From: a virus
Length of the DNA: 20,881 nucleotides
Strand: one strand, 5' to 3'
Virus record (IMG/VR): IMGVR_UViG_3300043425_000906
Coordinates: 1-20,881 of that record
The first letter of the stretch is position 1; each line of letters starts with the position of its first letter. The notes under the pieces were generated by a model that was given only the letters and a program-made list of their open reading frames with translations, was not told where the DNA came from and did no database searches. Positions 1 to 19,080 of this stretch are shown here, piece after piece. A program made the position numbers and the translations under genes.

Positions 1-3000
1 TTCGGGTCCGCATGAGCACGCACGAGCTGGTCGAGCCCCTGAATGGTGGCATTGAAGAAAGGCACAAACTGATTCAGCACACGGCTCACCTCACCCGCCC
101 TGGCGAAGTTCAGGCTTACCACCTTGCTCATGTTGGCCGCTTCCATCTCCGACTTACCAGATGCCAGTGCCTTCTTGAACTCCCCGACTCGCGTGGCCTC
201 TTCGGTGAACTGCCCCACGCTGCCGATCAGTCTCAGCGCATTGCGGAAACCACCGCGCCAGGCCTTCGGATCAGCCAGCCCCTGCATGGCACGTCGGGCA
301 ATCGGATCTTTTGGCAGCGCATCTTCCAACAGTGAGCTGAAAGCCTCGCTACCCGTCACCATGCCGCTGAACTGGCCGCCCGCTTCCTTCCACTGCTCAT
401 AGACACCGCTCTTGCGCATGATCTCCATGGCACCACGCACCGAGTCCACGAAGGGCACAAAGCCGCTCTTGCTCAGCACGCCGCCTTGCACGGCATCACG
501 GATCATGTTCGGCAGGGCAAACCATGGGCCGCCCGTGGCACCCCAGCGCAGCACCTTCGTCGGTGTCGTCATGATTTTGACCATCCAGCTCGGGATGCTG
601 CCCAGCTTCACGCTGTCTGCATCGGCATAGCGCAGCGCATTCATCAGCAGCGGGTCTTTCACCTCCCAGTGCTCGCGTTTGCCATCGCGGAAGATGATCA
701 CTTCCCCGTTCTTCGTGTCCGGCTTCGTCACCGCTTGGAAAAGTCGCAGCGTCAAATCTGCCGAGCTTGGCAGCATGGAGGCATCCTTGATCACGCCTTC
801 ATCCACCAGCTTCTGCACGATGGCATCATGCCCGATGGTCGTCGGCTTCATCTTCGGTGCGATCCCCTCGCCCCACTTGCCACCGCCCTGCACTTCCTTC
901 ACCAGATCGAAGAACTTCTGCCCGATCAGATTCTGCTCCGCGATCTTGCGGAACATGAAGGCATTCTTCATCGCTGATTGCAGCGGGTCGATGATGGCGC
1001 GGTCACTGCCTTTCAGGGCTCGGATGCCGCTGTTCAGGTCCACATACCCGCCCGCATTCTTGCCACCTTCCGGGCCAAAGCTCACCCCGTTCAGCTTCTC
1101 ATAGAGCCGGTAAAACGGCACATAGTCAGCATTCGCCGCATCCATGTCCGCCGCCGCCTTGGCATCCAGCAAACCCGCCTGCACCAGCAGGTTGCGTTCA
1201 TTCCGCTGCCACTTGATCAGCTTCTGGCGCATCGGCTCAAAGCGTGCCTCCAGCGCCTGCATCTCTGCCGCTGGCAGTTTCGCATTCTCGAAGCCGCTAC
1301 GCTTGCCACCGCGCTCGATCTCCGCCGCACGCTTCAGCGCCAGGTAAGTGCTGAAGCTCTCATTCTCCCCAGGCCGCAGCCCGCTGAGAATGCTTTTCAG
1401 CCCCTCGCCCACACGATTGCCAAAGAGGTCCGTCTGGTGGCCGAACACATCCGCGCCCGCCTTGCTCGCCCATCCACCGCGATGATTCTCCATCCATGCC
1501 TCCACCTCGGCCGCTTGCGTCTCCAGTCCGGGCTGCTGAGCCGCCGCGCGTGTCACATCCAGCGCAGGCTGAATGGTGTTCACCGCCTGCGCATACAGCC
1601 CTTTGAGAAAGCTCGTCACCGTCTGCGTCTGCCGCTCTGCCGCCGGATCAAAGACCACCTGCGCCTTGGCCTTCTGAAAGGCCGGCATAGCGATGTAGTC
1701 TTGCAACATGAAGCGCGTGTTGCGCAGTCCCTCCAGCATATCCGGGGCGCGGCGCTGCATCTCCGCCTCAAAGAAGCCGCTGAAGCGTGGTGCCTTCGCC
1801 CGCGTGCCCACCGGGTCCACCAGCCAGCCACGTATATACTCCGCCACGCCTTCCTTGCGCACCTGGTCCGGCGTGTAGGTCGGCGCACTCGTCGCCTGCC
1901 CCATTGCCATCAGCTCCGCATCATAGATGCCGCCCCAATCCGTCGCCTTCACCTTCTGGCCCGGCACCGAGTCAGTCAGCACGCGGAAGTGCAACGCATG
2001 ACCCACCTCATGAGCCAGCACCGGCAGATCATTGATCGCCTGAAGCCGGATTGTCTCCGGCTTGCTCTTGTAGATTCCCAGCGCCCCCTTGAATCGGCCC
2101 ACGCCCACCGCAGGCAAGCCCACCGTGTTCAGCAAATGCCGCCGGATACCATGCAGCGTCTGCACCGTGCCGCTCCAGGTCTGGATCACCGCAGGCGGCC
2201 CCGCATTGCTCACCGTGGACGGCAACGGCCCCGCCACCGCAGGTCGCTGATACGCGGCAGACATCGGCAGCACCTCCTCCTCCTTGAAAGTCGTCTTCTG
2301 ATTGAAAGCCGCATCCTTCTTCTCCATCGAGCGCGCCCGATGTTCCGCCTTCCTGTCCGCCTCAGCCTGCGCTTTCGCAGCCACAGGGTCCACCTCCAGC
2401 CGAGTCTGAATCACACGTCGTTTCTGGATCGTCGTCAGCCCCTCCAGCGCCGCTTCATTCCCGCTCGTGTAGTAGGCATCCGCCTTCGCATACACCTCCG
2501 GCGTCCACTTCGCCTGCGCCAGTGCTGGCAGAGATTCATTGGCCGCCCGCAAAGCTCTGCTCATGTCCGTGATCGTCCCAGACACTTCAGGCGCGGCAGA
2601 GAATTCACCTTGAAACTCCTGCTCGATCTTCTGTGCCAGATCCAGATCACCCTCAGCTACAGCCTCCGCCGCCTGCTCATAGGCTGCTGAGTCTTCCCAC
2701 GGCACAGCCATTCCAGCAGCTTCATTAGCAGCCAGTCCAGGACTCTTAGCAGTAGCAGCAGCACGCGCATCGGGAGAGGTAGCACCCGCAGGCTGACTGA
2801 AAAGCGCCATGTCACCGGCTGTGCTGTCCAGCATGTCCGGCGTGCCATACTCTCCGGCATTGCCTTTCAGCGCGGCGCTCTGCCGCTCGGCCAGATCGGC
2901 ACGCTGCTTGGCTCGTGCCTTCTCGGCGGCCAGTTCCTCATCACTCACGCTCTGCATGGTGAAGGGGTCTTCAAAGTCGGGCGCGGCCTGCTCACGCTGG

Positions 3001-5009
3001 CGCGGCTGATACTCATCCACAAAGACACCCGCCCGCGTGGTCGGGTCCAGACTCAGCACCCCGTAGCGCTTGCCGTCCTCGATCACCACGTTTGTCAGAT
3101 AGCCGTCTTCGTCATAGTCGATCTTCCGCACCACGGCCTTCTCGCCATTGATCAGCATCTCATCACCGGGGGCCACATCATCCAGGGCCACGAGCGTCTT
3201 GTCACGGTCCCCGGCTTTGGCTTGGTCCTTCTCGAAGCTGCTCACCTGCTGCGCTTCCTGTCTCAGCGCCTTGTCACGCTGGCGAAACTGCACGCGGTAT
3301 TGAGTGCGCGCATTGATCGTGCTCTGCACTTCATTCATCAAATCATCCACGCTCTGAATGCCTGGGAAACCTGCCGCCTGGGCCATGCCCAGCAGAGTGT
3401 CTGGCGAATGACCGCGCTGCGTCGTCGCAATGAACTTCCGGTAATACATCGGAATGTTATACCGCTCCTGCCAGTCGTAGCCAGCCTGTCCCTCCTGAGT
3501 GCTGCCCTTCACCGCCACGTTCAGCGGGTTCTCATTGAGGAAATCCAGAATGTCATAGCTGCCCAGCGGGCTGTCAGGAATCACGGGGCGCTTGAGCGAA
3601 CCATTCCTCACCTGCATTCCCGCCACCTGCCGCTGCCTCTCCATCTCCGCCGCCTCCGCGATGGCCTGCGCCTGCGGACTCTTGGCAATGCCGAAATCTC
3701 GCAGCACATTGCCGCCCGCCGCCGGGGTCGGTGCATTAAAAGGATCATCTTGGAAACCCGGCACCTGCTGGCGTGAGGGGGCGGACACCGTTTGTCCTAC
3801 CCCTGCCGGGGCGGGTGGCGTCACGACTTCGCCGCCGTCTTCCGTGGGTTGAGGCGGGGCTTCAATCGGGCCGCTGAAAGGATTCTCTGCTGGCGTTTGG
3901 CCTGCTGATACTGGTTCATTGTTTCGGGGTGGGTTGGTCGTCCTGCCTTGGCCGATCTTCTGCGCAGCCGCGCCCACGCCCATGAGTCCCAGCGATGCCG
4001 CCAGCGAATCCTTGGCGATCTGCACGCGCTGCTCCCACGGCACAAAAGCACTGTCCATGCTGGCGCTCACCTGCTCACTCAGCATCTCCGCGCCCACACC
4101 CTTTGCCACACTGGCACCACGTTGCACCATCGTCCGGCCCGCCCTCAGCGCGGCATTGCCAGCACCCACGGTGCCGATCATGCCGGCCAGCTCCGCCGGA
4201 TCTCCCGCTGCCTGGATGTAGGGACGTGCCTCCGGTGTCAGACCTTGCGCCAGCGTGCTCTCACTCATCAGCCGCGCTTTCTCCTGCTGCGTGCGGCGCA
4301 TCCCCGGTGTCTCCAGGATGCTTTGCTCCAGGCGCTGCCATGCCTCCGGGCTGCGCGTGCGCAGATACACATTCAGCGCGTCCGCATTCTCCGGCCTGCC
4401 CAGCAGGCTGTTGTCCTTGTGCCAGGCACCATTGGCGTCGGGAGTCTCGCGGTAAAACTTCGCCTGCTCAGCACGCACCACCGCGTCCTGCTTGTCCAGC
4501 CAGCCCGGCAGGCCATCGCCATCATCAAAGAAAGCCCCCTCATCGATGCCGCGCTTCAGCTCCTTCAGCTTACCTTGCAGCGGCTTAGGATCATCGAGCA
4601 CCTTCTGGGCGGCACCTGTCGCCAGGCCTGCCAGATTCGCGCCGATCATCGGCCCCAGAGTCTCCCCTGGAATCTGTCCTTTCAGCCCCTGCTCAGTCGG
4701 CACCACCGGGCTCATACCCAGGGCCATCGTGCCCACCGTGGCCGCGCTGTCTTTGATGGCACGGCCTGCCACCGTGGCATAACGGCCCGCCGTCTCCAGC
4801 ATCGTCTCACTGGCACTGACACGATCCCGCACCGTCTGCGCAAACTGGCCCCACTTCTGATAAGTGTCCTTGTTCCATGTTCCTGCCAGACTCGCCGCGC
4901 CCTCCGCCAGTGCACTCTCCGCCACGCTCTTCCGTTTCTCCAACGGCAGCGCTTGGAATTGAGGGCTTTCGATCAGGCTCGGGATCTGGTCAGCAGTCGG
5001 GGCAGGCAT
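1..5009 (-). CDS. Giant phage polyvalent/ejection-type protein with HEVGH metallopeptidase domain (3' end outside window)
   Basis: An uninterrupted minus-strand frame of 1669 codons starts at ATG 5009 and leaves the window without a stop. Along the protein I see a helical N-terminus; a Pro-rich linker (about 355-433); a small beta-rich, SH3/KOW-like stretch (about 608-666); an Ala-rich, charged stretch (about 735-820); and a zinc-peptidase segment LAHEVGHALHF with HEVGH at 1000-1004 and KEGVAEYI at 1052-1059 as candidate third-ligand region. The C-terminal part contains ALPNMIRDAV (about 1495) and QFVPFFNATIQGLDQL (about 1645), sequence of the kind found in 'large polyvalent protein associated' domains (LPD38-like, recognised from memory). 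Such phage proteins are thought to be packaged and injected with DNA. The gene follows the tail genes, where T7-like phages keep internal virion proteins. Reading frame is certain; metallopeptidase is likely; the polyvalent/ejection role is inference. No SD precedes the start. Confidence 0.85.
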   Translation of the reverse strand, partial: MPAPTADQIPSLIESPQFQALPLEKRKSVAESALAEGAASLAGTWNKDTYQKWGQFAQTVRDRVSASETMLETAGRYATVAGRAIKDSAATVGTMALGMSPVVPTEQGLKGQIPGETLGPMIGANLAGLATGAAQKVLDDPKPLQGKLKELKRGIDEGAFFDDGDGLPGWLDKQDAVVRAEQAKFYRETPDANGAWHKDNSLLGRPENADALNVYLRTRSPEAWQRLEQSILETPGMRRTQQEKARLMSESTLAQGLTPEARPYIQAAGDPAELAGMIGTVGAGNAALRAGRTMVQRGASVAKGVGAEMLSEQVSASMDSAFVPWEQRVQIAKDSLAASLGLMGVGAAAQKIGQGRTTNPPRNNEPVSAGQTPAENPFSGPIEAPPQPTEDGGEVVTPPAPAGVGQTVSAPSRQQVPGFQDDPFNAPTPAAGGNVLRDFGIAKSPQAQAIAEAAEMERQRQVAGMQVRNGSLKRPVIPDSPLGSYDILDFLNENPLNVAVKGSTQEGQAGYDWQERYNIPMYYRKFIATTQRGHSPDTLLGMAQAAGFPGIQSVDDLMNEVQSTINARTQYRVQFRQRDKALRQEAQQVSSFEKDQAKAGDRDKTLVALDDVAPGDEMLINGEKAVVRKIDYDEDGYLTNVVIEDGKRYGVLSLDPTTRAGVFVDEYQPRQREQAAPDFEDPFTMQSVSDEELAAEKARAKQRADLAERQSAALKGNAGEYGTPDMLDSTAGDMALFSQPAGATSPDARAAATAKSPGLAANEAAGMAVPWEDSAAYEQAAEAVAEGDLDLAQKIEQEFQGEFSAAPEVSGTITDMSRALRAANESLPALAQAKWTPEVYAKADAYYTSGNEAALEGLTTIQKRRVIQTRLEVDPVAAKAQAEADRKAEHRARSMEKKDAAFNQKTTFKEEEVLPMSAAYQRPAVAGPLPSTVSNAGPPAVIQTWSGTVQTLHGIRRHLLNTVGLPAVGVGRFKGALGIYKSKPETIRLQAINDLPVLAHEVGHALHFRVLTDSVPGQKVKATDWGGIYDAELMAMGQATSAPTYTPDQVRKEGVAEYIRGWLVDPVGTRAKAPRFSGFFEAEMQRRAPDMLEGLRNTRFMLQDYIAMPAFQKAKAQVVFDPAAERQTQTVTSFLKGLYAQAVNTIQPALDVTRAAAQQPGLETQAAEVEAWMENHRGGWASKAGADVFGHQTDLFGNRVGEGLKSILSGLRPGENESFSTYLALKRAAEIERGGKRSGFENAKLPAAEMQALEARFEPMRQKLIKWQRNERNLLVQAGLLDAKAAADMDAANADYVPFYRLYEKLNGVSFGPEGGKNAGGYVDLNSGIRALKGSDRAIIDPLQSAMKNAFMFRKIAEQNLIGQKFFDLVKEVQGGGKWGEGIAPKMKPTTIGHDAIVQKLVDEGVIKDASMLPSSADLTLRLFQAVTKPDTKNGEVIIFRDGKREHWEVKDPLLMNALRYADADSVKLGSIPSWMVKIMTTPTKVLRWGATGGPWFALPNMIRDAVQGGVLSKSGFVPFVDSVRGAMEIMRKSGVYEQWKEAGGQFSGMVTGSEAFSSLLEDALPKDPIARRAMQGLADPKAWRGGFRNALRLIGSVGQFTEEATRVGEFKKALASGKSEMEAANMSKVVSLNFARAGEVSRVLNQFVPFFNATIQGLDQLVRAHADP

Positions 5010-5050: not shown

Positions 5051-6172
5051 TCACTTCGCCTGCGTGTTCAGCCAGTCCAGCCAGCTCGGAGCCGACTTCT
5101 CCTTGTTGTCCGGCACGCCATTGCCGTCCGCATCTTCGACATAGCGTTTCACCAGCCTGCCGCTGGCAGGGTCTTCCATCACCGTGAACTGCCGCACCGG
5201 TGTCTTCACCATCTTGCCCGTGGCTTTGTCCATGATCTCCTGTCCACCTTCGGTCTGGATCTTGCCCGTGAAGGGGCGCGGCGTCGTGGGTTGCGCTGGG
5301 GCATAGGTCCGGCCTGCCACATCAGTGGCCTGCTTCGGCAGCGCGGGCACCATGCCCTGCCCACGGAATAGCTTCTCTTGTTCCATGGCTTGTTTGGCGA
5401 TAGCCTGTGCCTGCTCCTCCTGGGACTTCGGCAGCGCGGGCAGCGCCATCGGATCAGGAGCCGGGCCGGGGAAGAATCCACCTGCGGTCTTGGTGCTACC
5501 ATCGGCCTGCCGCATCATCGGCACATAACCACCCGCGCCTTCCATGGCGAAGAGTTCAGGGGCTTGCATCGTCTGCTCCTCGGCGGCGGTTTTCTCCTGC
5601 TGAGCCATGAAACTCGTGTTGTCCTGCGAGGCCCAGAAAGCATCATCACGGCCCGGCATCACGGGGGCGGGGGCGGCGGCGGGCTGCGTGCCGTTGTAGC
5701 TCGGCAGGGGGCGCGGGCCGCTGAGCATCATGGGTGCCTGTCCGGCGCTCATCATCATGGGCATGGGAGCCTGCCCGGTGCGCTCGGCGAAGTTCCGGTT
5801 GTTCCGGCCCACCGCGTAGGCGTTCGGGTTGTTCGTGCCGACACCACGCGGTGCGTAGCTCATCGGTCCACCACCACCACGTTCCGACAGTGGGCGCGGG
5901 TCCATGCCGCCCAGCGGATTGATCGGAGCTTGGCGCATGGGTGCGGGCGCTGCCACCACGGGCGCGGGGATGGGAGCGGGTCGTGGTGTCGGAGCACCGG
6001 AGCGGCCCAGCGCTGCCACGCGATCACTCGCAGGTGTCTGGAATCCCATCGGTGCCGGGCGTGCGTTTCTGGCCTGCTCTTCCACACCCGGAGGCAGTGG
6101 CGCTGGCGTAAACGCGGAGGCTGGGAAGGGCTGGGCTCTCATCCCAGGGGGTAGCATGATTTTAGAGGCCAT
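5051..6172 (-). CDS. Pro/Ala/Met-rich virion-associated protein, 373 aa, unrecognised family
   Basis: I do not recognise a family. Residues 1-180 are low-complexity, dominated by Pro, Ala, Gly and Met (for example APMPMMMSAGQAPMML near 135-150), with almost no predicted secondary structure. Residues 185-275 are more helical and Gln/Glu-rich. The C-terminus is more ordered and charged: KMVKTPVRQFTVMEDP, then RYVEDADGNGVPDNKE, ending SWLDWLNTQAK. The DADGNGVPD stretch resembles a dockerin/thrombospondin-3-like calcium loop. The gene sits between a virion gene and the giant ejection-type gene, 21 bases after the former and 41 before the latter. A role as an ejected or internal virion component is plausible from position only. 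ATG 6172 is the first start after the preceding stop. Confidence 0.8.
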   Translation of the reverse strand: MASKIMLPPGMRAQPFPASAFTPAPLPPGVEEQARNARPAPMGFQTPASDRVAALGRSGAPTPRPAPIPAPVVAAPAPMRQAPINPLGGMDPRPLSERGGGGPMSYAPRGVGTNNPNAYAVGRNNRNFAERTGQAPMPMMMSAGQAPMMLSGPRPLPSYNGTQPAAAPAPVMPGRDDAFWASQDNTSFMAQQEKTAAEEQTMQAPELFAMEGAGGYVPMMRQADGSTKTAGGFFPGPAPDPMALPALPKSQEEQAQAIAKQAMEQEKLFRGQGMVPALPKQATDVAGRTYAPAQPTTPRPFTGKIQTEGGQEIMDKATGKMVKTPVRQFTVMEDPASGRLVKRYVEDADGNGVPDNKEKSAPSWLDWLNTQAK

Positions 6173-6193
6173 AACAAGAATTCAGTCAGAGGT

Positions 6194-6946
6194 TTAGTTG
6201 CGGGAAAGGAAAGAGATGGAGTAGATGGAAGTCAACGCATTGCCGGGGTAGGCACCGCGAGAAATCGGGGACACACTCACGGCGGTGCCGGAGTAGCCAG
6301 CGCGCACTTCGCCTGTCTCGACTTCATCGGGCAGTGGATTGGCGCGGTTGCCTTCGAGATAAGTGCCGAGAGTGCGCAGGCCGATGTTAAAGTTGCTGTC
6401 AAAGGTGGCGGGATCATCAAAGTCCGTGGCGTAGTTTGGATCTTCGGCGAAACGACCGCGCACATAGAAGGTGATCACGGCGGTCTTTTGCAGGTCGGTG
6501 ACTTCGACATCGTAGCCGGGGCCGGTGCCTTCAAAGTAGTCGCCCGCCCAAAGCGCTCCGGGTGCCAGCTCACCAGCGGGTGTGGAGGTGCTGCCTGCTT
6601 CGGGCAGGATCTGCTGGAGCGTGCCCCAGGTATAGCCGCCCTGAGCCTGTGAATAACTCACCGCCGCCACGAGGTAAGGTGGATAGGTGAAGGTGCCATT
6701 CTCCACATACTCCGGCGGCAGAGTCACCACGCCGGTCATGCTCTGGGTCATGGTCACCTGTGCCCAGACATGGATCATGAGCGTCTTCGGTGTGCGCACC
6801 ACTGGAGATGTCTCCACCGGCAGCAGAGTCACCTGCCGATCCGCCACCACCACGCCCTGCCCGGCGAGAGGCAGCAGCTTGGCTTTCCATTCTTCAATGG
6901 TCTCGCGTGCGATGGCCACGCACTGCCTGGCTTGGTCACCCGTCAT
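6194..6946 (-). CDS. Probable tail/virion structural protein, 250 aa
   Basis: A short helical N-terminus (QCVAIARETIEEWKAKLLPL, residues 8-27) is followed by a largely beta-type chain rich in Thr, Val, Gly, Tyr and Pro, with no membrane segment or signal peptide. No family recognised. ATG 6946 overlaps the TGA of the 61-aa gene by four bases (ATGA), implying coupled translation. Its place between the ASH-domain protein and the putative ejection genes suggests a tail or tail-completion component. The composition (Tyr/Gly/Thr-rich, low Cys) fits a virion protein, but the exact role cannot be read from the sequence. Confidence 0.8.
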   Translation of the reverse strand: MTGDQARQCVAIARETIEEWKAKLLPLAGQGVVVADRQVTLLPVETSPVVRTPKTLMIHVWAQVTMTQSMTGVVTLPPEYVENGTFTYPPYLVAAVSYSQAQGGYTWGTLQQILPEAGSTSTPAGELAPGALWAGDYFEGTGPGYDVEVTDLQKTAVITFYVRGRFAEDPNYATDFDDPATFDSNFNIGLRTLGTYLEGNRANPLPDEVETGEVRAGYSGTAVSVSPISRGAYPGNALTSIYSISFLSRN

Positions 6947-7128
6947 GAGGTGGCTGCCCTCCCGATGGTGATGAAAGGGTAGCCGCTGCCGATGGCAGTG
7001 CTGTCACTGCCCGCCGCGAGCTGGATCTCCGCGATGGCCTGCTGCATCATCTCATTGGTCAGGCGCAGGATCTCGTTGGCCTGGGCTTCAGGCCCGGCCT
7101 TGCCATCGAGGAGATCGTCAGAGGTCAT
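6943..7128 (-). CDS. Small helical phage protein, 61 aa
   Basis: Residues 14-40 form a continuous amphipathic helix (PEAQANEILRLTNEMMQQAI), followed by a Gly/Ser/Ile-rich tail (STAIGSGYPFITIGRAA). The tail resembles, in composition, that of its upstream neighbour (VIGGSNPLLFVP): both end in a Gly-turn plus hydrophobic strand. ATG 7128 overlaps the stop of the 63-aa gene by four bases and its own TGA overlaps the next ATG, so it is the middle of a tightly coupled trio. No family recognised; an oligomeric minor virion protein or chaperone is possible. Too small to assign a role. Confidence 0.7.
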   Translation of the reverse strand: MTSDDLLDGKAGPEAQANEILRLTNEMMQQAIAEIQLAAGSDSTAIGSGYPFITIGRAATS

Positions 7129-7316
7129 GGCACAAAGAGAAGAGGATTGCTGCCGCCGATCACCGCCGCCCCTTCGGCGGGGATGAATTGGATGCGGCCC
7201 ATGGTCACGGCGATGAGTTGTTTCACCAAGGCCTGCATTGACTCAAACTGCGCCTCGTCGCCTCTCTCTCCCGAGAGGTTGGCGAAGGTGTCGTTGGATG
7301 GGGGCTCTTGGTCCAT
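7125..7316 (-). CDS. Small helical phage protein, 63 aa
   Basis: An acidic disordered start (MDQEPPSNDTF) leads to a helix (AQFESMQALVKQLIAVTMG, residues 22-40) and a short hydrophobic C-terminal stretch IQFIPAEGAAVIGGSNPLLFVP. The layout, helix then Gly-rich strand, matches the following 61-aa protein and suggests two related or interacting partners. It begins nine bases after the stop of the 615-aa protein. No family recognised; the coding call rests on conserved codon bias and tight spacing on both sides. Confidence 0.7.
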   Translation of the reverse strand: MDQEPPSNDTFANLSGERGDEAQFESMQALVKQLIAVTMGRIQFIPAEGAAVIGGSNPLLFVP

Positions 7317-7325
7317 GGTTTTCGG

Positions 7326-9173
7326 TTACACGGCGGTCATCTTGATATTCACTTCATAGGGGTCTTCGTTCTCGTCGTTGTTTTGCAGTGTCAGGAATTC
7401 AGTGAAGGTGCCAGCCGCCAGCGGTGCGTAGCGCACCACCATGGTCGTGCTGCCACCTGCTGCCACGGGGGAGGTTGGTGCTGTCTGCACGCTGAAGTAG
7501 CCCACCATGGCATCGGCAGTCACCGTCAGCGGTGCCGTGCCAGTGTTTTCGATGGTCAGCGTGATGTCCGTGGTCATGCCTACCGTGGTCGTGCCAGCCG
7601 GGAAGATTTCGCTGCCATTGGCGTAGCTTGTGCCCAGATATTTGAGGTTGATCTCCGGCACCAGCACCGTGCCTGCCAGATTGATCGTGTGCGGGCTCTG
7701 CGGGTCGTCGCTGGTGATGGTGAGCACGGCGGTCTTGCTGCCGCTCGATGTCGGGCTGAAGGTGACAAGCTGTGTCTCGCTGCCATCCACGGCCACGGAG
7801 GTCGGCGAGGTGCCGAGGGTCCACTGGTTCGCATTGGTGCCACTGAGGGCGATGCTGGAGATGATGAGCGGCATGGTGCCGTCATTGTAGATCGTCAGGG
7901 TATCGGCATCGCTGCCGCTCACGGTGGCGCTTTGGGTATTGGTGCCGCCGCTGGCGATCACGGTGCTGCCATTCTGCACGCGTATTTCTGGCTCGCTCTG
8001 GGCCATGAACTGCGCCGTGTTGCTGTTGGTGCCGCCGTGTTTGATGCGCGCATAGTATTGACGCCCACGGGTCAGGCCCGTGACATCGTAGGTGGTCGCG
8101 CTCGTGCTCACGCTCACATTGTTCAGCAGGAAGCCACGGCTGAAGTCGGGCGTGGTGGACACGTCCAGCGTAGTGCCACTGGCAGCGGCGGCAAAGGAGA
8201 GGCGCACGCTTGTCACGGTCAGAGAGGCCCAGCTCAGCACCAGACTCGACACCACACCCGCCGTGCTTGGGGCATCGATCGTCACCGTCGTGGTCAGCCA
8301 GCCGCCAAGATACGGCCGCACATCCACGTCAGCGATTAATGTGGCGGGCCAGGCGACGGGACTTGTGGCGGGCTCGATCCATGTAAAGCCCTGCTCGCTG
8401 AAGTAATAGTTCCCATGCAGGCAGCTTTCCACGCTGACATTGAAGTCCACCCCATTGTAGGAGATGGGCCGTGGCAGCAGCACCGTAGGCACCGGCAGGT
8501 AAGGCGCACTGCCGGAGGCGGGCCAGTTGGCATCTCCGTCAAAGGTCGGCTTCACGCTCGTCCAGCGTTCAGTGATGGTGGCCTTGCAGCTTCCATTGTA
8601 GCTAAAGGACTTCCAGACTGGGTAGAAGATGTATCCCGTCACCGCACTGAAGGCATCCGCTGGATCAGCATAGATGGGCCGGACGAATAGCGAGTCCAGC
8701 ACGGGTGGCCAGTAGTGGCGCACATGCTTGTAATGCACCCGCTCCTTGAGTCCGCTCGCGGCATCGCCTGCCAGTCCGGCGGCCTCGCGGATGGTCTTGA
8801 TCATCCAGTCGGGATTGATCGATTCCACTTCGGCAAAGGTGCCGGTGCTGTCGATGGCTGTGGCATTGGTGCCCGCCGCCACGATCTCGCGCGTGGTGGT
8901 GCGGATGGTTCCGGTGTCCGGGTCGATGCTCTTGCTCACCATCTGGGAGCCGAGTTCGATATACATCGGATACTGAAACCCCTCCTCTGCTGGTTCAAAG
9001 CCAAACAGGATATGATTCGGGTAATCCGCCGCAGGCGTGTAGGCCTCGCCGATGGTCATCCGCTTCGCCACGTCATCACGCACTTTCTTCCCCCGCAGCA
9101 GCAGGTTCTTGAGCGGTTCACCGAAGCGCAGCGTGCGGTTCGGGTCGTCGCCATTGATCAGCCAATTAGCCAT
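7326..9173 (-). CDS. Probable tail/receptor-binding protein with FN3-like and two ASH-type Ig domains, 615 aa
   Basis: Residues 1-300 look like a phage virion domain (MANWLINGDDPNRTLRFGEP...), including an aromatic, Pro-rich central part. Residues 311-390 resemble a fibronectin-III/Ig strand pattern ending in YDVTGLTRGRQYYARIKHG. Residues about 394-502 and 506-615 are two tandem repeats of the choice-of-anchor D / ASH (ASPM-SPD2-Hydin) type: each opens with PEI and continues with TLTIYNDGTMPL or ITLTIENTGTAPL, then a (V/R)TFSP or VRYAPL strand and a closing TITSDDPQ or TLQNNDENE turn. These domains usually mediate adhesion. I infer a host-contacting tail or fibre-like protein exposed on the virion. 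The start overlaps the upstream gene by eight bases. The N-terminal family is unrecognised. Confidence 0.85.
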   Translation of the reverse strand: MANWLINGDDPNRTLRFGEPLKNLLLRGKKVRDDVAKRMTIGEAYTPAADYPNHILFGFEPAEEGFQYPMYIELGSQMVSKSIDPDTGTIRTTTREIVAAGTNATAIDSTGTFAEVESINPDWMIKTIREAAGLAGDAASGLKERVHYKHVRHYWPPVLDSLFVRPIYADPADAFSAVTGYIFYPVWKSFSYNGSCKATITERWTSVKPTFDGDANWPASGSAPYLPVPTVLLPRPISYNGVDFNVSVESCLHGNYYFSEQGFTWIEPATSPVAWPATLIADVDVRPYLGGWLTTTVTIDAPSTAGVVSSLVLSWASLTVTSVRLSFAAAASGTTLDVSTTPDFSRGFLLNNVSVSTSATTYDVTGLTRGRQYYARIKHGGTNSNTAQFMAQSEPEIRVQNGSTVIASGGTNTQSATVSGSDADTLTIYNDGTMPLIISSIALSGTNANQWTLGTSPTSVAVDGSETQLVTFSPTSSGSKTAVLTITSDDPQSPHTINLAGTVLVPEINLKYLGTSYANGSEIFPAGTTTVGMTTDITLTIENTGTAPLTVTADAMVGYFSVQTAPTSPVAAGGSTTMVVRYAPLAAGTFTEFLTLQNNDENEDPYEVNIKMTAV

Positions 9174-9498
9174 GGTCGATGTCCTCCGAGGTCAGGGGTT
9201 GGGTCAGCTCGGGTGCGTCCGGCATGTCAGCCATGCCGATGTGTCCGCGCTTGGCGGTCATAGCCTGGCTGAGTGCCTGCCAGTAGTGCTGCATCTGTGC
9301 CACGCCGTTTTGCACTCCGGCGGAGTAGATGGCACGCACCGCCCAGTCAGCAGAGGTGGTTTCATCGCTCGGGATGGCTGCCGCAATGTCATCCGCTCCA
9401 GGACTGCGCAGGTGCCAGACATCAAAGCCCTGCACCGTCTTGAGTGTGCCGAGCTTGTCGAAGCCCGCAGTGGTGAGAAATTGAGCGGCGGGACTCAT
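9166..9498 (-). CDS. Hypothetical phage protein, 110 aa
   Basis: The start MSPAAQFLTTAGFDKLG is chosen because ATG 9498 overlaps the endolysin stop by four bases (ATGA); the longer frame upstream would lie entirely inside the endolysin gene. The chain has an N-terminal alpha/beta part (TVQGFDVWHLRSPGADD), a helical centre (GVQNGVAQMQHYWQALSQAM) and a disordered acidic tail. No signal, membrane segment or catalytic motif is seen. It links the lysis genes with the downstream adhesion gene, which it overlaps by eight bases. The function is unknown; from the position it could belong to either module. Confidence 0.75.
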   Translation of the reverse strand: MSPAAQFLTTAGFDKLGTLKTVQGFDVWHLRSPGADDIAAAIPSDETTSADWAVRAIYSAGVQNGVAQMQHYWQALSQAMTAKRGHIGMADMPDAPELTQPLTSEDIDHG

Positions 9499-9956
9499 TT
9501 GAATTCGAAGGCCAGCCTCCCTGTGTTGAAAAGGTATTGCTCCGCCTTGCGCCTGCGCACGAGTCCGGGCAGCACCTTGCCGCCGCCGCGTGTCCACTTC
9601 AGGAACTCCAGCGCCGCGCCACCCTTGTCGTTCTGGTTCAGCTTCTTCAGCAGCGTGCTTTTACCGAGCGCGCCCGTGTTGAAATGGAAGCTCACCAGCG
9701 CATCAAACTGGTGTTGCTCCAGTGGCACCTTCACCAGCTTCTCCACGGAAGGGGCGAACACACTCAGGTCATGCTTCAGCAGTTCCTCCGCCTGCGCCTT
9801 GGTGATCTTCCTGCCAGCTTTCACAGTGCCATCCTTGTGCTTTAGTCCGGTGTGTCCGTAGCCGATGGTCCAGACTCCGGCGGGGCAGAGGTAAGCGGTA
9901 AGGTAAAGCCCTTCGAAGTGCTTCACGAGATCGGTGCAGAGAGGCGAGATGTTCAT
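9495..9956 (-). CDS. Endolysin, GH24 (T4/P22-type) lysozyme, 153 aa
   Basis: This muramidase hydrolyses peptidoglycan glycan chains at the end of infection. The start MNISPLCTDLVKHFEG at ATG 9956 puts the family's catalytic pattern in place: Glu15, eight residues, Cys24, five residues, Thr30 (HFEG ... YLCPAGVWTIGYGHT). Cys at the second position replaces the Asp/Cys seen across the family. Downstream are HQFDALVSFHFNTGA and a WTRGGGKVLPGLVRRRKAE segment, both characteristic of the family. There is no signal peptide or SAR anchor, so export depends on the holin. The length fits the family norm of 145-165 residues. The start overlaps the stop of the membrane miniprotein by four bases. Confidence 0.96.
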   Translation of the reverse strand: MNISPLCTDLVKHFEGLYLTAYLCPAGVWTIGYGHTGLKHKDGTVKAGRKITKAQAEELLKHDLSVFAPSVEKLVKVPLEQHQFDALVSFHFNTGALGKSTLLKKLNQNDKGGAALEFLKWTRGGGKVLPGLVRRRKAEQYLFNTGRLAFEFK

Positions 9957-10039
9957 TGGCGGAAAGTGGCGATCACTCCCCACAGCACGAGCACCAGGCA
10001 AAGCGTGGCGAGTGAGATGGGCAGGATGAGAGGGTTCAT
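9953..10039 (-). CDS. 28-residue single-pass membrane miniprotein coupled to the endolysin
   Basis: The frame reads MNPLILPISLATLCLVLV followed by LWGVIATFRQ: one hydrophobic segment spanning residues 4-25 with a short basic end. Its TGA overlaps the endolysin ATG (CAATGA), a typical translational-coupling arrangement. AAGGAACC lies just upstream of ATG 10039, one of the few SD-like runs in this window. It sits between the tRNA and the endolysin. It may be an auxiliary holin/antiholin or a leader that meters endolysin translation; both are inferences. Confidence is moderate because of its size. Confidence 0.6.
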   Translation of the reverse strand: MNPLILPISLATLCLVLVLWGVIATFRQ

Positions 10040-10070
10040 GGTTCCTTGTGCTTGGTGCTTCGTTGAAAGG

Positions 10071-10144
10071 TAACAGGGGCAGGACTCGAACCTGCGGTCT
10101 TCTGGTTATGGGCCAGACGATTTAACCAACTTATCCACCCTGTC
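10071..10144 (-). tRNA. tRNA-Met(CAT)-like gene with C33, overlapping a membrane-protein gene
   Basis: The minus strand folds as a full 74-nt cloverleaf: acceptor GACAGGG/CCCTGTT (first pair G-U), a 3-bp D-stem GAT/ATC with GG in its loop, anticodon stem TCTGG/CCAGA around loop CCCATAA (anticodon CAT), a 5-nt variable loop, T-stem GCAGG/CCTGC with loop TTCGAGT, and discriminator A. CCA is not encoded (A is followed by CCT). Position 33, almost always U, is C here. The anticodon fits Met or, if lysidine-modified, Ile; the G1-U72 pair is unlike a bacterial initiator. The 5' 39 bases also encode the end of the upstream protein. Confidence 0.82.
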
Positions 10145-10294
10145 AGAAAGATTGTCCGGCGTGCTGTCGCCTAGCTTGTGGTGCTCCCATGCTGCGGCAG
10201 CATCAACCACCCAGAAGAGCACGAGCAAAGCCGCGAAAACCAGCGGCAGCAGCACCGCGATGGCGATGAGAAGGACTTGCAGCACGGTCATCAT
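10106..10294 (-). CDS. Small membrane protein of the lysis cassette, 62 aa
   Basis: Residues 3-31 form a long hydrophobic segment (VLQVLLIAIAVLLPLVFAAL onward through LVLFWVV), followed by a soluble polar tail with EHHKLGDSTPDNLSDRVDKL. ATG 10294 overlaps the lipoprotein TGA by four bases; ATG 10291 is an alternative start. The last twelve codons and the TAA stop lie within the tRNA gene: the stop is made of the final three bases of the anticodon loop. It may be a second holin, antiholin or spanin helper, judged from position and topology only. No family recognised. Confidence 0.65.
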   Translation of the reverse strand: MMTVLQVLLIAIAVLLPLVFAALLVLFWVVDAAAAWEHHKLGDSTPDNLSDRVDKLVKSSGP

Positions 10295-10515
10295 GGTGTC
10301 AGTGCCTCCCGCACGCGCTGCTGGTATTCGGCATCCGAGTGCCAGACCTCATCAGTCTGGGACTGGTATCGCCCTTGGGCTGTTTGGATCACGGTGCCCG
10401 CTGGCACCTTCAGGAAGGGCGGCGAGTAGAGCGTCATTGAGTCGGCGACGGGCCGGGAGGAACACGCGCAACTCATCAGCAGCGCGACGATCAGCAGGAG
10501 TATTGGCGGTTTCAT
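10291..10515 (-). CDS. Small lipoprotein, Rz1/o-spanin-like position, 74 aa
   Basis: A lipoprotein signal peptide is evident: MKPPILLLIVALLMSC, with lipobox L-M-S-C and Cys16 as lipidation site. The predicted mature protein is 59 residues and contains SPPFLKVPAGTVIQT and SQTDEVWHSDAEYQQRVRE. The gene starts inside the upstream 96-aa gene in another frame and runs past its end, the arrangement of Rz/Rz1 pairs, so an outer-membrane spanin subunit is a reasonable inference. It is not Pro-rich like classical Rz1, so another envelope role (for example superinfection or decoration lipoprotein) remains possible. The stop overlaps the next ATG. Confidence 0.75.
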   Translation of the reverse strand: MKPPILLLIVALLMSCACSSRPVADSMTLYSPPFLKVPAGTVIQTAQGRYQSQTDEVWHSDAEYQQRVREALTP

Positions 10516-10642
10516 GGCGGATGATTTTAAGCGTGAGGCGTTCCAGATCTCGGGAGGACTTCCATGCCGCCAGCCAAGGCACCACTTTCAGCGCCGCTGT
10601 GGCGGCCTGAAGGAAGGCCGTGATGGTGGCCAAGGGATTCAT
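10352..10642 (-). CDS. i-spanin-like helical protein, 96 aa
   Basis: Residues 5-28 form a moderately hydrophobic helix (ATITAFLQAATAALKVVPWL), weaker than a classical membrane anchor. They are followed by charged helical segments (SSRDLERLTLKIIRHE, then DRRAADELRVFLPARRRL) and a disordered Pro-containing tail. ATG 10642 overlaps the holin TGA by four bases. Holin, a helical protein with an N-terminal hydrophobic segment and an overlapping lipoprotein gene together match holin-Rz-Rz1 organisation. The assignment as inner-membrane spanin is inference, since no sequence signature of Rz is seen and the charged helix could equally serve another role. Confidence 0.7.
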   Translation of the reverse strand: MNPLATITAFLQAATAALKVVPWLAAWKSSRDLERLTLKIIRHETANTPADRRAADELRVFLPARRRLNDALLAALPEGASGHRDPNSPRAIPVPD

Positions 10643-10812
10643 GCGCCGGTCTTGTTGCCATCTTTGGAGGCGATGAGCCCGAGGCCAGCGAGCACGCCCA
10701 CGGCTTTGGCAAGCTCGTCAGCGTATTGTGGCAGCCAGGTGGCAGTGACGACTCCGAGGATGGTCACAAGTCCGGCGAGGCTGGTCTTCCAGTTTTTGAG
10801 GATGTAGTTCAT
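10639..10812 (-). CDS. Holin, small single/double-pass membrane protein, 57 aa
   Basis: The start MNYILKNWKTSLAGLVTILG at ATG 10812 lies four bases after the upstream stop; a longer frame exists but its N-terminus would overlap the upstream gene. One hydrophobic segment runs through residues 11-27, then a short turn (LPQYADELAK) and a second, Gly-rich one (VGVLAGLGLIASKDG), ending basic. This pattern is typical of small phage holins that place a lethal lesion in the inner membrane and let the endolysin out. The spanin-like genes follow directly, supporting the role. Family assignment is from pattern recognition and context. Confidence 0.78.
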   Translation of the reverse strand: MNYILKNWKTSLAGLVTILGVVTATWLPQYADELAKAVGVLAGLGLIASKDGNKTGA

Positions 10813-10816
10813 AGGA

Positions 10817-11275
10817 TTAGGGTCGGTTGTCGGTTTCTTGGTTCGGCGGTTCTCCGCAGCATTCGGCATCATTCGGCAAAATGCGGAAGTTCTTGGCGAT
10901 GGCCCAGCTCTTGCCCGCCTTCACAGGCGTGGGGTAGATGCGGCCAGCCGAGATCCAGTCGAGCACCGCTCGCTCCGTCACCTTCTCCCGCGCAGCGATG
11001 TCGGCGGTCGTCACATAGTCGCGGGCGGTATCCACCAGCTCCGTAGTCGGTTCCGTTTTCCCCACATTGACATTCTGGGAAACCCCGCCCTTGCCTCCAG
11101 TTTGAATCATGACGATCTGCATTTTAAGCACCGCGATGTCTTTGTCATGCCTCACAATGGACGACACCGCCCAAAGCGAAAAGATCGGTGCCGCCCAAAG
11201 GCTGATCTTGAAGATCCAGCCGTGCAGGGTGCCCAGCTTGATCACGCTTTCGGAGGATTCGTCAACGATGCTCAT
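10817..11275 (-). CDS. Membrane protein fused to an excisionase/MerR-like HTH domain, 152 aa
   Basis: A transmembrane segment (GWIFKISLWAAPIFSLWAVS, residues 19-38) is followed by a basic stretch and a short helix (DKDIAVLKMQIVMIQ), a Gly/Asn/Thr linker, and then DYVTTADIAAREKVTERAVL (86-105) with WISAGRIYPTPVKAG and SWAIAKNFRILP. That C-terminal unit matches AlpA/excisionase winged-HTH patterns (helix, turn, helix, basic wing). Basic residues after the membrane segment favour a cytoplasmic HTH. The start ATG 11275 overlaps a mini-frame stop. It immediately precedes the holin. Membrane-tethered regulator, lysis-timing factor or adapted protein-binding domain are the options; none is proven. 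Confidence 0.75.
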   Translation of the reverse strand: MSIVDESSESVIKLGTLHGWIFKISLWAAPIFSLWAVSSIVRHDKDIAVLKMQIVMIQTGGKGGVSQNVNVGKTEPTTELVDTARDYVTTADIAAREKVTERAVLDWISAGRIYPTPVKAGKSWAIAKNFRILPNDAECCGEPPNQETDNRP

Positions 11276-11346
11276 GGAGTCGAGGTTGTTTCTTCGGGTG
11301 GCTCTGCTGCTTCCTCAGTTGGTTTCGGCATCAGGTGCTCAAGCAC
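11272..11346 (-). CDS. Possible mini-gene or frameshifted remnant, 24 aa
   Basis: A GTG-started frame reads as a Pro/Glu/Thr-rich peptide with HLMPKPTEEAAEPPEETTST; the internal ATG 11331 would give 19 residues. Its TGA overlaps the next gene's ATG by four bases, as true genes here do. Upstream, ATG 11374 opens a different frame (MTASWEVHRCA, then stop) that a +1 shift would join to this one, so a 33-residue protein broken by a single base change is an alternative. Evidence is spacing and composition only. Confidence 0.3.
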   Translation of the reverse strand: MLEHLMPKPTEEAAEPPEETTSTP

Positions 11347-13939: not shown

Positions 13940-15169
13940 TTAGGCGACGGCGGTGTAAACCTTGCCGTGAACCGCAGGCATGGAGCAGAAGAGGCTGAAG
14001 AAGCCTTCGACATAGCCCTGCGTGCCGCTGCCGTCCGGGGAGAGGTCCACTTCTTCGAGGCCGTTCAACAGCTCGTAGAAGTATTCCATCTCAAGGGCCA
14101 GCATGTGGTCCTGGTCACCCAGCGTGAGCGTGGGGGAGCCGGTGGCGGTGGCCGCAGCCGAGAGCACGATGCGCGTGCTGTTGGTGATGCTGGCGATGTA
14201 GGCACCCGCAGGAATGCCCGTGCCGCCGATCTTCATGCCAGACTGGAGGCCTGCCGTGCTCGTCACGTCCAGCGCGGTGCTGGTGTTCGTGGTGCTGGCA
14301 CCGGCAAGGGAGCCCGCATTGCGCACACCGTTGAGGTGCTCGGTGGGGACGACCATCAGACTGCCGAAGGCGGTCTTGTAGCCGGTGAGCATGGCGCTGA
14401 TCTCGTGATCGGTGCTGTCCTGGTTGAAGCGGCGGATCGGCGTGCTGGTATTGCTGAGTGTGCCAGCATCGAAGAACGTGGCCAGGTGATTGGCGAAGTC
14501 CGTGGTGCAGAAGGCGGTCAGCTTGACGTTCTTGCGCTTGGCCTGACGGCACTCCAGCAGGAGCGTGCGCATCTGCGTCTCGGTGAAGGCCGAGGCGGAG
14601 GCCACGTTGATGAGCTGGGCCGAGGTCGGGCGGTAGTTGCTATCCACCTGGAAGGTGGAGCTGGTGCCCTGGGCGGAGCTTTCGACATAGCCGGAGGCAC
14701 CCATGGTGAGGTGCATGGTGCCCAGGCGGGCTTCGTCATCGTGCGCGGTGGCGGTATCCTTTGCCACCTGGGCGGAAAGGTAGGTGAGTTCGACGCCCTG
14801 CTTGTAGCGCTCCAGAGCGCGGAAGCGGGACTCGCCGACTTCATTGGCGACGCCTGCGGTGTTTTCGACTTTCTCGACGCGCTTGCTCACGCCGTAGGTT
14901 TCGCGCTTCTGCTGCACGGCACCGTAGATCTTGGCGCGGTTGGTGAAGTGATTGCTCACGCTGGCGCGTGTCACGGAGTCACCTTCTTCGACACCGGCAA
15001 GGCGTCCCGTCAGGTGTTTGTCCGCCACTTTGGAATAGACGGAGTTTTCAGCCGCGCCGCCACTTTGGACGGTGGAGCTGAACAGTGTGTTCTCGTTGTC
15101 GAGAAGGGCGATTTCGTCGGCCAGATCTTCGTGGATGCCTGGGACGGTAGAGGAGAGGGCTTGAGCCAT
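13940..15169 (-). CDS. Major capsid protein, SU10/DUF5309-like HK97 fold with inserted domain, 409 aa
   Basis: The protein forms the capsid shell. Recognisable traits of the family are the N-terminal TGRLAGVEEGDSVTRA region, TNRAKIYGAVQQKRETYGVS (76-95) with its N-x-x-x-I and VS pattern, ENTAGVANEVGESRFRALER (102-121), and the late VVPTEHLNGVRN followed by LALEMEYF, YVEGFFSLF and a C-terminal HGKVYTAVA. Residues about 285-351 interrupt the conserved core with a Thr/Ser/Gly-rich beta module (STAGLQSGMKIGGTGIPAG onward). The gene follows the scaffold-like gene by 46 bases and is followed by a hairpin, both usual for capsid genes. The start is unambiguous but has no SD run (CCAACTACC before ATG). 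Family recognition is from memory of motifs. Confidence 0.9.
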   Translation of the reverse strand: MAQALSSTVPGIHEDLADEIALLDNENTLFSSTVQSGGAAENSVYSKVADKHLTGRLAGVEEGDSVTRASVSNHFTNRAKIYGAVQQKRETYGVSKRVEKVENTAGVANEVGESRFRALERYKQGVELTYLSAQVAKDTATAHDDEARLGTMHLTMGASGYVESSAQGTSSTFQVDSNYRPTSAQLINVASASAFTETQMRTLLLECRQAKRKNVKLTAFCTTDFANHLATFFDAGTLSNTSTPIRRFNQDSTDHEISAMLTGYKTAFGSLMVVPTEHLNGVRNAGSLAGASTTNTSTALDVTSTAGLQSGMKIGGTGIPAGAYIASITNSTRIVLSAAATATGSPTLTLGDQDHMLALEMEYFYELLNGLEEVDLSPDGSGTQGYVEGFFSLFCSMPAVHGKVYTAVA

Positions 15170-16417: not shown

Positions 16418-16432
16418 GGACATTACCTGTCC
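16418..16432 (-). promoter_or_regulatory. Small hairpin at the scaffold ribosome-binding region
   Basis: The minus strand has GGACA-GGTAA-TGTCC, a 5-bp stem with a 5-base loop ending six bases before ATG 16412. A purine-rich AAGGGGATGGGGTGGGACAG run lies just upstream and partly within it. If it folds in the mRNA it could limit ribosome access to the scaffold gene. A five-base stem may be chance. The remainder of the 75-base gap to 16487 shows nothing else. Confidence 0.3.
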
Positions 16433-16782: not shown

Positions 16783-19080
16783 TCAAACAAGTTGTTGGGC
16801 TTCGATCTGCGGCTGCTGCATCATCTGCGCCAGGCTCACACCATCGGGCAGCGCTTGCAGCATTTGCAAAAGTTGTTCGCCTGCGCTGGGCTGGGCCAGC
16901 GGGTCTTCAGACAAGGTGCGGCCGATGCGGGCATTCTCGCCACCGTGCTGCTTCTGGTTGTTCACCAGTCCGGCAAGGTAACTCGTGAGCACGACATGGA
17001 TCTGCTGACCACCGATCACACTTTGCTGGCGGAGCGGACTGCGCATGACTTCATCGCTCACCGCCTGGGCAAGCCCGCCGAAGTCCATGCCCTCGGTGAC
17101 ATCGGGAGCACCACCGGAGAAGATTTCAGAGAGGTGCATCCGCGCCATGTCGAGCGTTTGACGCTGGGCGGTGTCGGCATCCTTCGGCAGGCACTGCGCG
17201 GCGAGGCCGGGGTCGAGCATGTTGAAGCCTGCTTCGAGGATCGGCAGGGTGTTGATCTGCCCGCGATTGTCGAGCGGCACGATCATGTCCTTGATGAAGC
17301 CGAGGTGCTTGCTCGTCCATTCGACATCGAGACTCTTGACGTTGAACTTGCTTTGGAAGTCGAAGCCACCGCGCACGTCGTCTGCCGTGGCGGTCACCAG
17401 TTCATTGGTGCCGGTGATGCGGGCACCTTGCAGCGGCGGCATGTATTGCTGAATGAGCTTGGCGGTGCGGGCAATGCACTGACTGAGCGAAAGCATGAAC
17501 CAATCCAGCTCCGCCTGCCCCATCATCATGGCCACACTGTCGGCGACGTTGCGACTGGCGAAGCCAAAGAACTCATTGACGCTTTCACGCACGGTGCGCT
17601 CGATCTCGATGCTGCGGCCATCGGGCGGCGGGATCTGTAGAGCGGTGGGCACCTTGCCGCGAATGGATGGCAGGAACACACCGGGCGCGGGGCGCAGGCC
17701 TTCGAGTTCCGGGTCGCCTGTCCATGTCGGGAAGGTCGTCAGGCTGGCGGCATCGGTGCGGCTGTCCCACTGGGCTTTCACCGCTTGCTCCTTGGTCATC
17801 GTGATCTCGGGCACGCTGTAGCCATCGAGCATCAGGCGCTCGTCCTGGCTGAAGGTGAAGGGCACGAAAGGATACGCACCATCCCAGTCCATGCGGAGTT
17901 CGCGCTTCGCCACCTTGTCCTTCACATCGGCGTGCATCACGGTGGCATAGGTGCCGGTGAGCCCGTCCACCGTCACGGCGCGATCCCACAGCTCGATGAT
18001 CTGATACAGGTGATTTTGTGCCTCGCCATTAGTGCGGGCGCTCCAGTTCACCCCGGCACCACTGAGCGCCCACGGGTAGCTGGCCATGCTGTTGCTGAAC
18101 AACGCGCTGCGGCCTTTGTGCTTTTCCAGCACCTCTTTGACCCATGCCTTGTCCCAGTCATAAAGCGCGGCCTGCTCACGAATCCACTGCGCTGAACGCC
18201 AGCGCACGCGGCCCACCCAGCGGCAGGAGTCGAGCCCGTCTTCCATCAGCGTTTCATAGGGAAAGAAGACATCCACGAACGGCTGCAAGGCCTCCCAGCA
18301 AGGGGAGCTGCGTTTGACATAAGCGGCATGAACGGTGGCTTGTTCAGCACCTTTGCGCAGCGCGCCCAGCGCCCGCTTGATGGAGGCCTCACCAATCTTG
18401 CGACGTTGCGCCGCACCGGGGAGATTGCGCAGGCAAAGGGGAATCAGGCGCGACTCCTCCGCCTCGTCCAAAACCATGGCATTGAAGTCGATGTCCTCGA
18501 TCAATGTCATGTCCTGCGCCTCGGCAGCGACTTGCATTTTCAGCCAGTCCGCCACCATGGGCACAGTGATCTGGATGGCTTCCACCCCGCGCTCTTCCTT
18601 CCAGCCGACATAAAGCAGGCTGGCGCGGAAGCGATCCGCGTAACTGCCGGCCCGTAGGCCTTGAGTCACGAACTCCGTCCGCATGGGTCCATTGAGGTAG
18701 TAGCGCAGCACCTGGCGCATGAGCCCGGCGCGTTTGGCGTCCGTGCTTTCCATCGGCGTCACAGTGAGGCTGCCCGACACCAGCGCGGCGATGCGTGCCG
18801 CATTGCGACGGTTCATCACTGTTTGCGTCAGATGCACCTCATGGTCAGCGGCCCCGTTGAAGGGCTTCGCATCGCTCGTCTTGGTGTTGGCCTTCTTGCC
18901 CGTGCCGGTTTTGTTCTGCCACCAGCACTTGCGCGTCTGCTCGTTGGTCGCCATTTGTTTCAGAAACAGACTGGCATCACGGCAGGCCGCGTCCATCTCG
19001 TCCAGGGCATCGCTCACCTTCCAATCGGCAAGCGGCTTCTCCGGGTCAATGACGGAGGGGAGTTCAGAGGGTTCGGCCAT
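16783..19080 (-). CDS. Portal protein (P22/T7-type podovirus portal), 765 aa
   Basis: The portal forms the dodecameric DNA channel at one capsid vertex. Diagnostic features are KPFNGAADHEVHLTQTVMNR (72-91), equivalent to the 'W-x-G-A-S-D' entry of many portals; the long mixed alpha/beta wing and stem; FFPYETLMEDGLDSCRWVGR, typical of the clip-domain entry; VRESVNEFFGF, the usual 'x-N-x-F-G' crown-entry helix; and a Gln-rich C-terminal helix (LQALPDGVSLAQMMQQPQ) fitting a barrel/crown extension. The length of 765 matches P22-like portals. The start ATG 19080 overlaps the HTH-like gene by 17 bases. The genes that follow (97-aa, scaffold, capsid) are the usual head order. Assigned from motifs and context. 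Confidence 0.9.
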   Translation of the reverse strand: MAEPSELPSVIDPEKPLADWKVSDALDEMDAACRDASLFLKQMATNEQTRKCWWQNKTGTGKKANTKTSDAKPFNGAADHEVHLTQTVMNRRNAARIAALVSGSLTVTPMESTDAKRAGLMRQVLRYYLNGPMRTEFVTQGLRAGSYADRFRASLLYVGWKEERGVEAIQITVPMVADWLKMQVAAEAQDMTLIEDIDFNAMVLDEAEESRLIPLCLRNLPGAAQRRKIGEASIKRALGALRKGAEQATVHAAYVKRSSPCWEALQPFVDVFFPYETLMEDGLDSCRWVGRVRWRSAQWIREQAALYDWDKAWVKEVLEKHKGRSALFSNSMASYPWALSGAGVNWSARTNGEAQNHLYQIIELWDRAVTVDGLTGTYATVMHADVKDKVAKRELRMDWDGAYPFVPFTFSQDERLMLDGYSVPEITMTKEQAVKAQWDSRTDAASLTTFPTWTGDPELEGLRPAPGVFLPSIRGKVPTALQIPPPDGRSIEIERTVRESVNEFFGFASRNVADSVAMMMGQAELDWFMLSLSQCIARTAKLIQQYMPPLQGARITGTNELVTATADDVRGGFDFQSKFNVKSLDVEWTSKHLGFIKDMIVPLDNRGQINTLPILEAGFNMLDPGLAAQCLPKDADTAQRQTLDMARMHLSEIFSGGAPDVTEGMDFGGLAQAVSDEVMRSPLRQQSVIGGQQIHVVLTSYLAGLVNNQKQHGGENARIGRTLSEDPLAQPSAGEQLLQMLQALPDGVSLAQMMQQPQIEAQQLV

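Follow-up and report, generated by a model that had tools for sequence, protein, structure and literature searches.

An LPD38-type polyvalent protein predicted in a short-tailed phage, and the rebuilding of its gene from different modules among sister phages

The IMG/VR virus record IMGVR_UViG_3300043425_000906, analysed here over its entire length of 20,881 bases (the window), carries at its left end a very long minus-strand open reading frame (ORF), which we call the giant. This ORF is probably the larger part of a short-tailed phage's gene for an LPD38-type polyvalent protein, one that would be packaged in the head, ejected and equipped with a built-in peptidase. Sequence comparison with related contigs shows that sister phages with ~90% identical heads carry, at this one locus, giants built from different modules.

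A portal search of IMG/VR found ten sister contigs, with portals 89-94% identical, from which six sister giants were recovered (G001, G002, G003, G004, G009 and G010; L002 is the same IMG/VR record as G001). In a per-gene comparison, the capsid protein was 90-95% and the portal 89-94% identical in all sisters, the tail-side genes were patchy, and each of the six recovered giants was, compared with the window, a different mosaic. The N-terminal module of the window giant was found in G003 and G004 (44%), the payload module M in G001 (87%), a 90-residue linker piece in G002 (67%) and a 55-residue piece in G010, and G009 gave a remote match only. The giants of the window and L002 have only residues ~381-760 in common, with 88% nucleotide identity over 1036 bases and unrelated flanks. 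On rough numbers, synonymous divergence (dS) in this common segment is 0.51, below that of the neighbouring shared genes (0.74-2.1), which is consistent with a later exchange of the segment.

An all-against-all comparison of the window giant, the six sister giants and the giant of L093 revealed two C-terminal types in the genus. The LPD38 type is found in two of seven giants, those of the window and G009, which are ~20% identical to each other in this part; the G009 giant matches LPD38 at E 1.6e-25 and has an HExxxH variant. The other five (G001, G002, G003, G004 and G010) end in an unrelated type B of ~820 amino acids (aa), with 47-96% identity. The giants of G003 and G004 are close, being 96% identical C-terminally and 74% N-terminally, with different middles. 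The type-B C-terminus gave no accepted Pfam match, that of G001 has no homologue among isolate phages, and hhalign detected no profile similarity of type B to LPD38 giants or to phage N4, the shallow type-B alignment limiting the sensitivity of this comparison. No account of a genus with alternative, mutually exclusive C-termini of two types at a single locus turned up in the literature searched. An HExxH motif lies midway in two type-B giants, at residue 883 in L126 and residue 1096 in L128; these are possibly further zincin domains, of another clade.

The first-pass annotation of this DNA had described a stop-free frame from ATG 5009, and this reading stands. The frame continues for 1669 codons to base 3 and is still open at the contig end; a stop-free run of 1676 codons has a chance of ~3e-23 at the base composition of 61% G+C. 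Codon statistics, named in that annotation as a possible refutation, favour the giant frame: G+C at codon positions 1/2/3 is 0.67/0.47/0.74, and in the 298-codon stretch common to the window giant and L002, 74 of the 86 changed codons are synonymous (dS as above, non-synonymous divergence (dN) ~0.028, dN/dS ~0.055). The frame also aligns with homologues across residues ~950-1667. Codon-position composition, synonymous change and homology thus all point to the giant frame as the translated one, and the plus-strand ORFs that overlap it, the longest of 570 aa, are its shadows and not genes, as had been cautioned. No clear Shine-Dalgarno sequence stands in front of ATG 5009, and the same holds for most genes of the contig; one is clear only before 6194-6946 and 7326-9173 and is missing upstream of most other minus-strand genes. 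The host lineage may be one that does not rely on Shine-Dalgarno sequences. Since the window is the whole record, the stop of the giant lies off the contig. Because its four closest relatives (34-39% identity here) run ~336-363 residues past the window end, the full-length protein should be ~2000 aa long, with the missing stop ~336-363 codons beyond the contig end.

The giant consists of at least four separable modules that differ in their spread among relatives (see table), with a Pro-rich linker at residues ~355-430 and an Ala-rich linker further on, which bears out the earlier expectation of several domains and low-complexity linkers as in the polyvalent class. The N-terminal module has no relative in isolate phages, nor in LPD38 giants outside the genus. 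It has no strong transmembrane segment, and a transmembrane N-terminus was dropped as a candidate, the best 19-residue hydropathy being merely 1.19. Module M is under strong purifying selection, as the dN/dS above suggests. It is ~27% identical to a part of the L093 giant, and its second half also occurs in L012; no relative was found in 50,697 phage records, a profile-guided scan returned only the three relatives already known, and its structure model is poor, with a predicted local distance difference test (pLDDT) score of 58. In a scan of PHROGs, the giant matched only families of unknown function. The domain combination is new, as predicted, and the stronger novelty lies in the rebuilding of the whole gene between sister phages.

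Motif, profile and weak fold agreement together suggest a zincin-like metallopeptidase in the middle of the giant. Among the 25 giants in which this domain could be aligned, HExxH and two glutamates (E1053 and E1057) are kept in all, and LPD38 is present in 24, the sole exception being the truncated window. The zincin profile matches the C1 zincin of the N4 virion RNA polymerase (vRNAP; hhalign P 2.7e-6, probability 88%). A confident model of the zincin, helical core and LPD38 was obtained for L013 (1049 aa, 53 sequences, pLDDT 86, predicted template modelling score 0.83). It had no PDB fold match at E<=0.001; the best fold by probability was the lethal factor peptidase (up to 0.93, but E ~0.6), which was the reference fold when polyvalent-protein zincins were first described (PMC5512222). 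The window protein had no PDB match by sequence, and the family profile reached only lethal factor in the PDB (E 0.024). Against BFVD, the L013 model gave 88 matches at E<=0.001, many of them named large polyvalent proteins. The core and LPD38 were also compared by hhalign with the N4 C2 domain and with the type-B C-terminus, and homology to either was rejected at the given sensitivity. The first-pass annotation had anticipated separate matches to a metallopeptidase and to LPD-type domains. The peptidase is supported through homologues, profile comparison and weak fold similarity, with no Pfam family inside the window; the LPD-type domain has no separate match there, and LPD38 (PF18857) is instead expected just beyond the contig end. 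In all four annotated relatives tested, LPD38 starts 26-38 residues past the end of the alignment to the window; the contig would thus end short of this domain, which accounts for the lack of an LPD38 match at the Pfam gathering score.

Searching with tblastn, we found relatives of the giant in 55 phage records, every one below 60% identity and mainly over residues ~950-1667; they include giants of Vibrio, Thalassomonas, Pelagibacter, Bacillus and Escherichia phages, mostly podophages. An alignment-guided scan of IMG/VR returned 273 relatives, of which 80 were kept. The payloads joined to the zincin-core-LPD38 module in relatives include ddrB-ParB, a DNA methylase, a zeta toxin and a lysozyme. 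In Pelagibacter phage HTVC034P and the Manatee Spring phage MW202898, the giant homologue sits one gene past an annotated internal virion protein B, in the order tail tube A (or a gene in its place), tail tube B/stabilisation protein, acetyltransferase, internal virion protein B, a ~500-aa protein, giant and tail fibre. In Vibrio phage FGH and Bacillus phage Palmer, the homologue also lies within the structural region. The motifs GFTDFANWSRAM...RFG..I..YLQGIW and SRFASP recur as small modules in several of the L002, L093, L125 and L128 giants.

The LPD38 giant JC1 gp69 (4515 aa) is present in purified virions, with 51 unique peptides detected by mass spectrometry (PMC9144972), and Iyer et al. 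proposed that zincins in polyvalent proteins act by autoproteolysis or on host targets (PMC5512222). From these reports and the payloads of the relatives, we infer that the window protein is packaged in the head, ejected and processed, the first two by analogy with JC1 gp69. The C-terminal part (core and LPD38) would serve as the docking and ejection part, bringing the protein into the head and sending it out via the tail. The zincin could cut the giant itself, releasing payload modules in packaging or after entry, or could cut a host target, and the N-terminal and M modules would work in or on the newly infected host. Rapid in-frame module swaps at the linkers may adapt the phage to host defences or inner-membrane barriers.

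Several results weigh against a packaged and ejected polyvalent protein. Nothing convincing was found in Pfam for the window ORF or its pieces, LPD38 is not visible in the ORF owing to the truncation, and the giant has no recognisable enzymatic payload. No solved structure matched the core and LPD38, and the N4 C2 domain compared with them gave an hhalign probability <1%. Among GTDB genomes only two distant loci were found, on short contigs of metagenome-assembled genomes, and therefore no host could be assigned.

The giant could instead be purely an ejectosome protein that only forms part of a transient DNA channel like T7 gp16, its zincin and M being structural relics. Its location in the same region as internal virion proteins would fit, as would the lack of the HExxH domain in many LPD38 giants. 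However, the zinc motif is strictly kept wherever the domain is aligned, M is under strong purifying selection, and relatives contain recognisable enzymes, so that we regard this explanation as unlikely. The mosaic structure of the giant could also be an artefact, should the contig join two phages, and both the metagenome origin of the contig and the sharp start and stop of similarity to L002 (residues ~395 and ~760) are what a chimera would give. The frame nevertheless remains open across both junctions, which lie near window positions 2729 and 3870, all four segments of the giant agree in codon usage (distances 0.09-0.13), and this usage fits the L002 giant and not the other genes of the contig. 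Additionally, several sister contigs have equally different giants, and the part shared with L002 is 88% identical, not identical. The mosaic is most likely not an assembly artefact, and a chimera seems very improbable. The idea that the giant is an ejected enzyme of the N4 type, such as a virion RNA polymerase, can practically be dismissed: the C1 zincin of N4 vRNAP is homologous to that of the giant and the late-gene order is similar, with the giant last, but Pfam and PHROGs scans gave no RNA polymerase family match, N4 C2 is not homologous to the core and LPD38, and merely a few hundred unassigned residues lie ahead of the zincin.

The Pro-rich linker of the giant contains a palindromic DNA element, GGGGTAGGACA-N5-TGTCC, which we call the seam; six of the seven giants of the genus carry it at this linker, in each case in frame. 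Pairwise identity in the 15-base dyad is 87%, compared with 32-35% in sequence 20-60 bases away. With a spacer of 5 the palindrome gave 13 matches, with the other lengths from 0 to 15 none, and a reversed control pattern also gave zero; in the window it was found twice against 0.06 times expected by chance. The six giants use the same seam codons, GGG GTA GGA CAA and TCC, and because these are mostly rare in these genes and identical, the seam appears to be conserved at the nucleotide level, although our calculation assumes independence, so its figure overstates the surprise. The alternative that it is kept only for the peptide GVGQxxS was rejected on the same shared codons. The giants of G001 and G002 have a second copy of the palindrome 21 bases on. 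In L002 the palindrome lies at 10088, 10109, 17260 and 17281 and in L124 at 7417 and 7438; copies can follow each other in tandem at a distance of 21 bases. Many IMG/VR contigs contain it, and 74 stretches have the full element, some of them expected by chance alone; at 15 sites it is in the frame of a long ORF, usually that of a giant, and the others lie outside long ORFs in unrelated contexts. The seam looks like a widespread short palindromic repeat lodged in giant linkers. It may act in crossover, bind a protein, form an RNA hairpin (clearly better than shuffles in two of five cases) or be no more than a passive insertion. Alignment ends among giants favour Pro-rich, hydrophobic-poor stretches (Pro 0.083 vs 0.057 at random; 0 of 2000 resamples as high), which is weak evidence of seams by itself because fast-evolving linkers are where local alignments usually stop in any case. 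It is conceivable, although we advance it as speculation, that injected proteins are encoded at this locus in a cassette that recombines, in which N-terminal, payload and C-terminal modules are exchanged in frame behind the same head, the palindrome supplies crossover homology, and LPD38 and type-B ends are interchangeable for delivery.

Table. Features of the giant and of other genes in the window (residues refer to the giant)
Feature	Position	Strand	Description
Giant ORF	3..5009	-	ATG 5009, 1669 codons; N-terminal part of a predicted LPD38-type polyvalent protein
N-terminal module	3870..5009	-	Residues 1-380, Ala/Gly-rich; ~44% identity to giants of G003 and G004 only
DNA seam GGGGTAGGACA-N5-TGTCC	3783..3803	-	Encodes GVGQTVS; in frame, Pro-rich linker between N-terminal and payload modules
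Payload module M	2910..3737	-	Residues 425-700; ~96% aa and 88% nucleotide identity to G001 (L002) giant
Beta-rich sub-domain of M	2994..3212	-	Residues 600-672; small, also in L093 and L012; low-confidence model
Ala-rich linker	2700..2807	-	Residues ~735-770; similarity to G001 stops here
Zincin-like metallopeptidase domain	1695..2147	-	Residues 955-1105
HEVGH zinc motif	1998..2012	-	Residues 1000-1004; HExxH in 25/25 aligned giants
EGVAE	1839..1853	-	Residues 1053-1057; presumed third zinc ligand; E1053 and E1057 invariant
Helical core preceding LPD38	3..1442	-	Residues 1190-1669; common to at least 84 phage giants
Gene directly upstream of giant	5051..6172	-	373 aa; 36-65% partial identity to same-place gene in some sisters
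Major capsid protein	13940..15169	-	SU10_MCP, PF17236; 90-95% identity across genus
398-aa gene	15216-16412		Second palindrome copy just upstream
Second GGACA-N5-TGTCC copy	16418..16432	.	Just upstream of 398-aa gene
Portal protein	16783..19080	-	765 aa; assigned by position and size only, no family match; 89-94% across genus

The giant comes after the portal, the SU10-type major capsid protein and other late genes, all on one strand. Third-position GC skew is +0.30 in the giant (3-5009) and opposite in most same-strand neighbours (5051-19080), down to -0.42; the L002 giant is also G-rich at third positions (+0.41). Amid the tail-side genes, an endolysin (9495-10001, minus strand; phrog_7, E 1.2e-59) is present in only two of the compared sister contigs. 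The minus-strand gene at 7326-9173 encodes a 615-aa protein with two Ig-like domains of the ASPM-SPD-2-Hydin type; the corresponding L002 protein, at 1227 aa, has twice its length.

Of all phage molecules, giant ejected proteins are thought to be some of the earliest to encounter the defences of a host, but the pace at which they change was previously not visible. Here, capsid and portal are ~90% identical, yet the giants have no more than fragments in common, and an unrelated sequence has taken the place even of the presumed delivery end. A specialist may find this rebuilding within a genus, with its exchange of C-terminal type and its seam, surprising. The sister giants are naturally occurring pairs in which one can ask what module is responsible for packaging and ejection and what module for a host-specific action, and the palindrome, as a defined DNA seam, gives a starting point for studying the origin of in-frame swaps.

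Among known systems, T7 gp16 and the podophage ejection proteins (PMC8954989) resemble the giant in late-gene position and in the inferred route into the cell. They show no sequence similarity to the window protein, which has no transglycosylase domain; no T7 gp16-like match was found for the giant in Pfam, PDB sequences or PDB folds. In N4 gp50 (PMC12633501), the C1 domain is a zincin homologous to that of the giant and precedes a large helical domain, and as an ejected giant gp50 also ends the late operon; the window giant has no RNA polymerase domain, and C2 is not detectably homologous to the core and LPD38. The DarB-like giants JC1 gp69 and Bcep22 gp75 have LPD38 near the C-terminus and are the last structural gene, JC1 gp69 being a virion protein. 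Unlike the window giant, they have transglycosylase, methylase and helicase modules (4515 aa), and they show no direct BLAST similarity to the window protein. Closer are the giants of Vibrio phage vB_ValP_FGH, Thalassomonas phage BA3 and the Vibrio 1.183/1.211-type phages (24-25% identity). In FGH, where the order was checked, zincin, core and LPD38 follow one another in the same way, but the payload is adenine-methylase-like, whereas the window has M and no methylase. As in the LPD38 polyvalent proteins (PF18857; Iyer et al. 2017, PMC5512222), the giant is a very large multi-domain protein of the late operon with a zincin, and LPD38 is expected after the window; it differs in a zincin recognised by no Pfam model and in the unnamed M module. 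Module swapping is also known in podophage ejection proteins (review PMC8954989). The polyvalent class is thus already known, and it is the rebuilding within one genus, together with the conserved DNA seam, that appears to be new.
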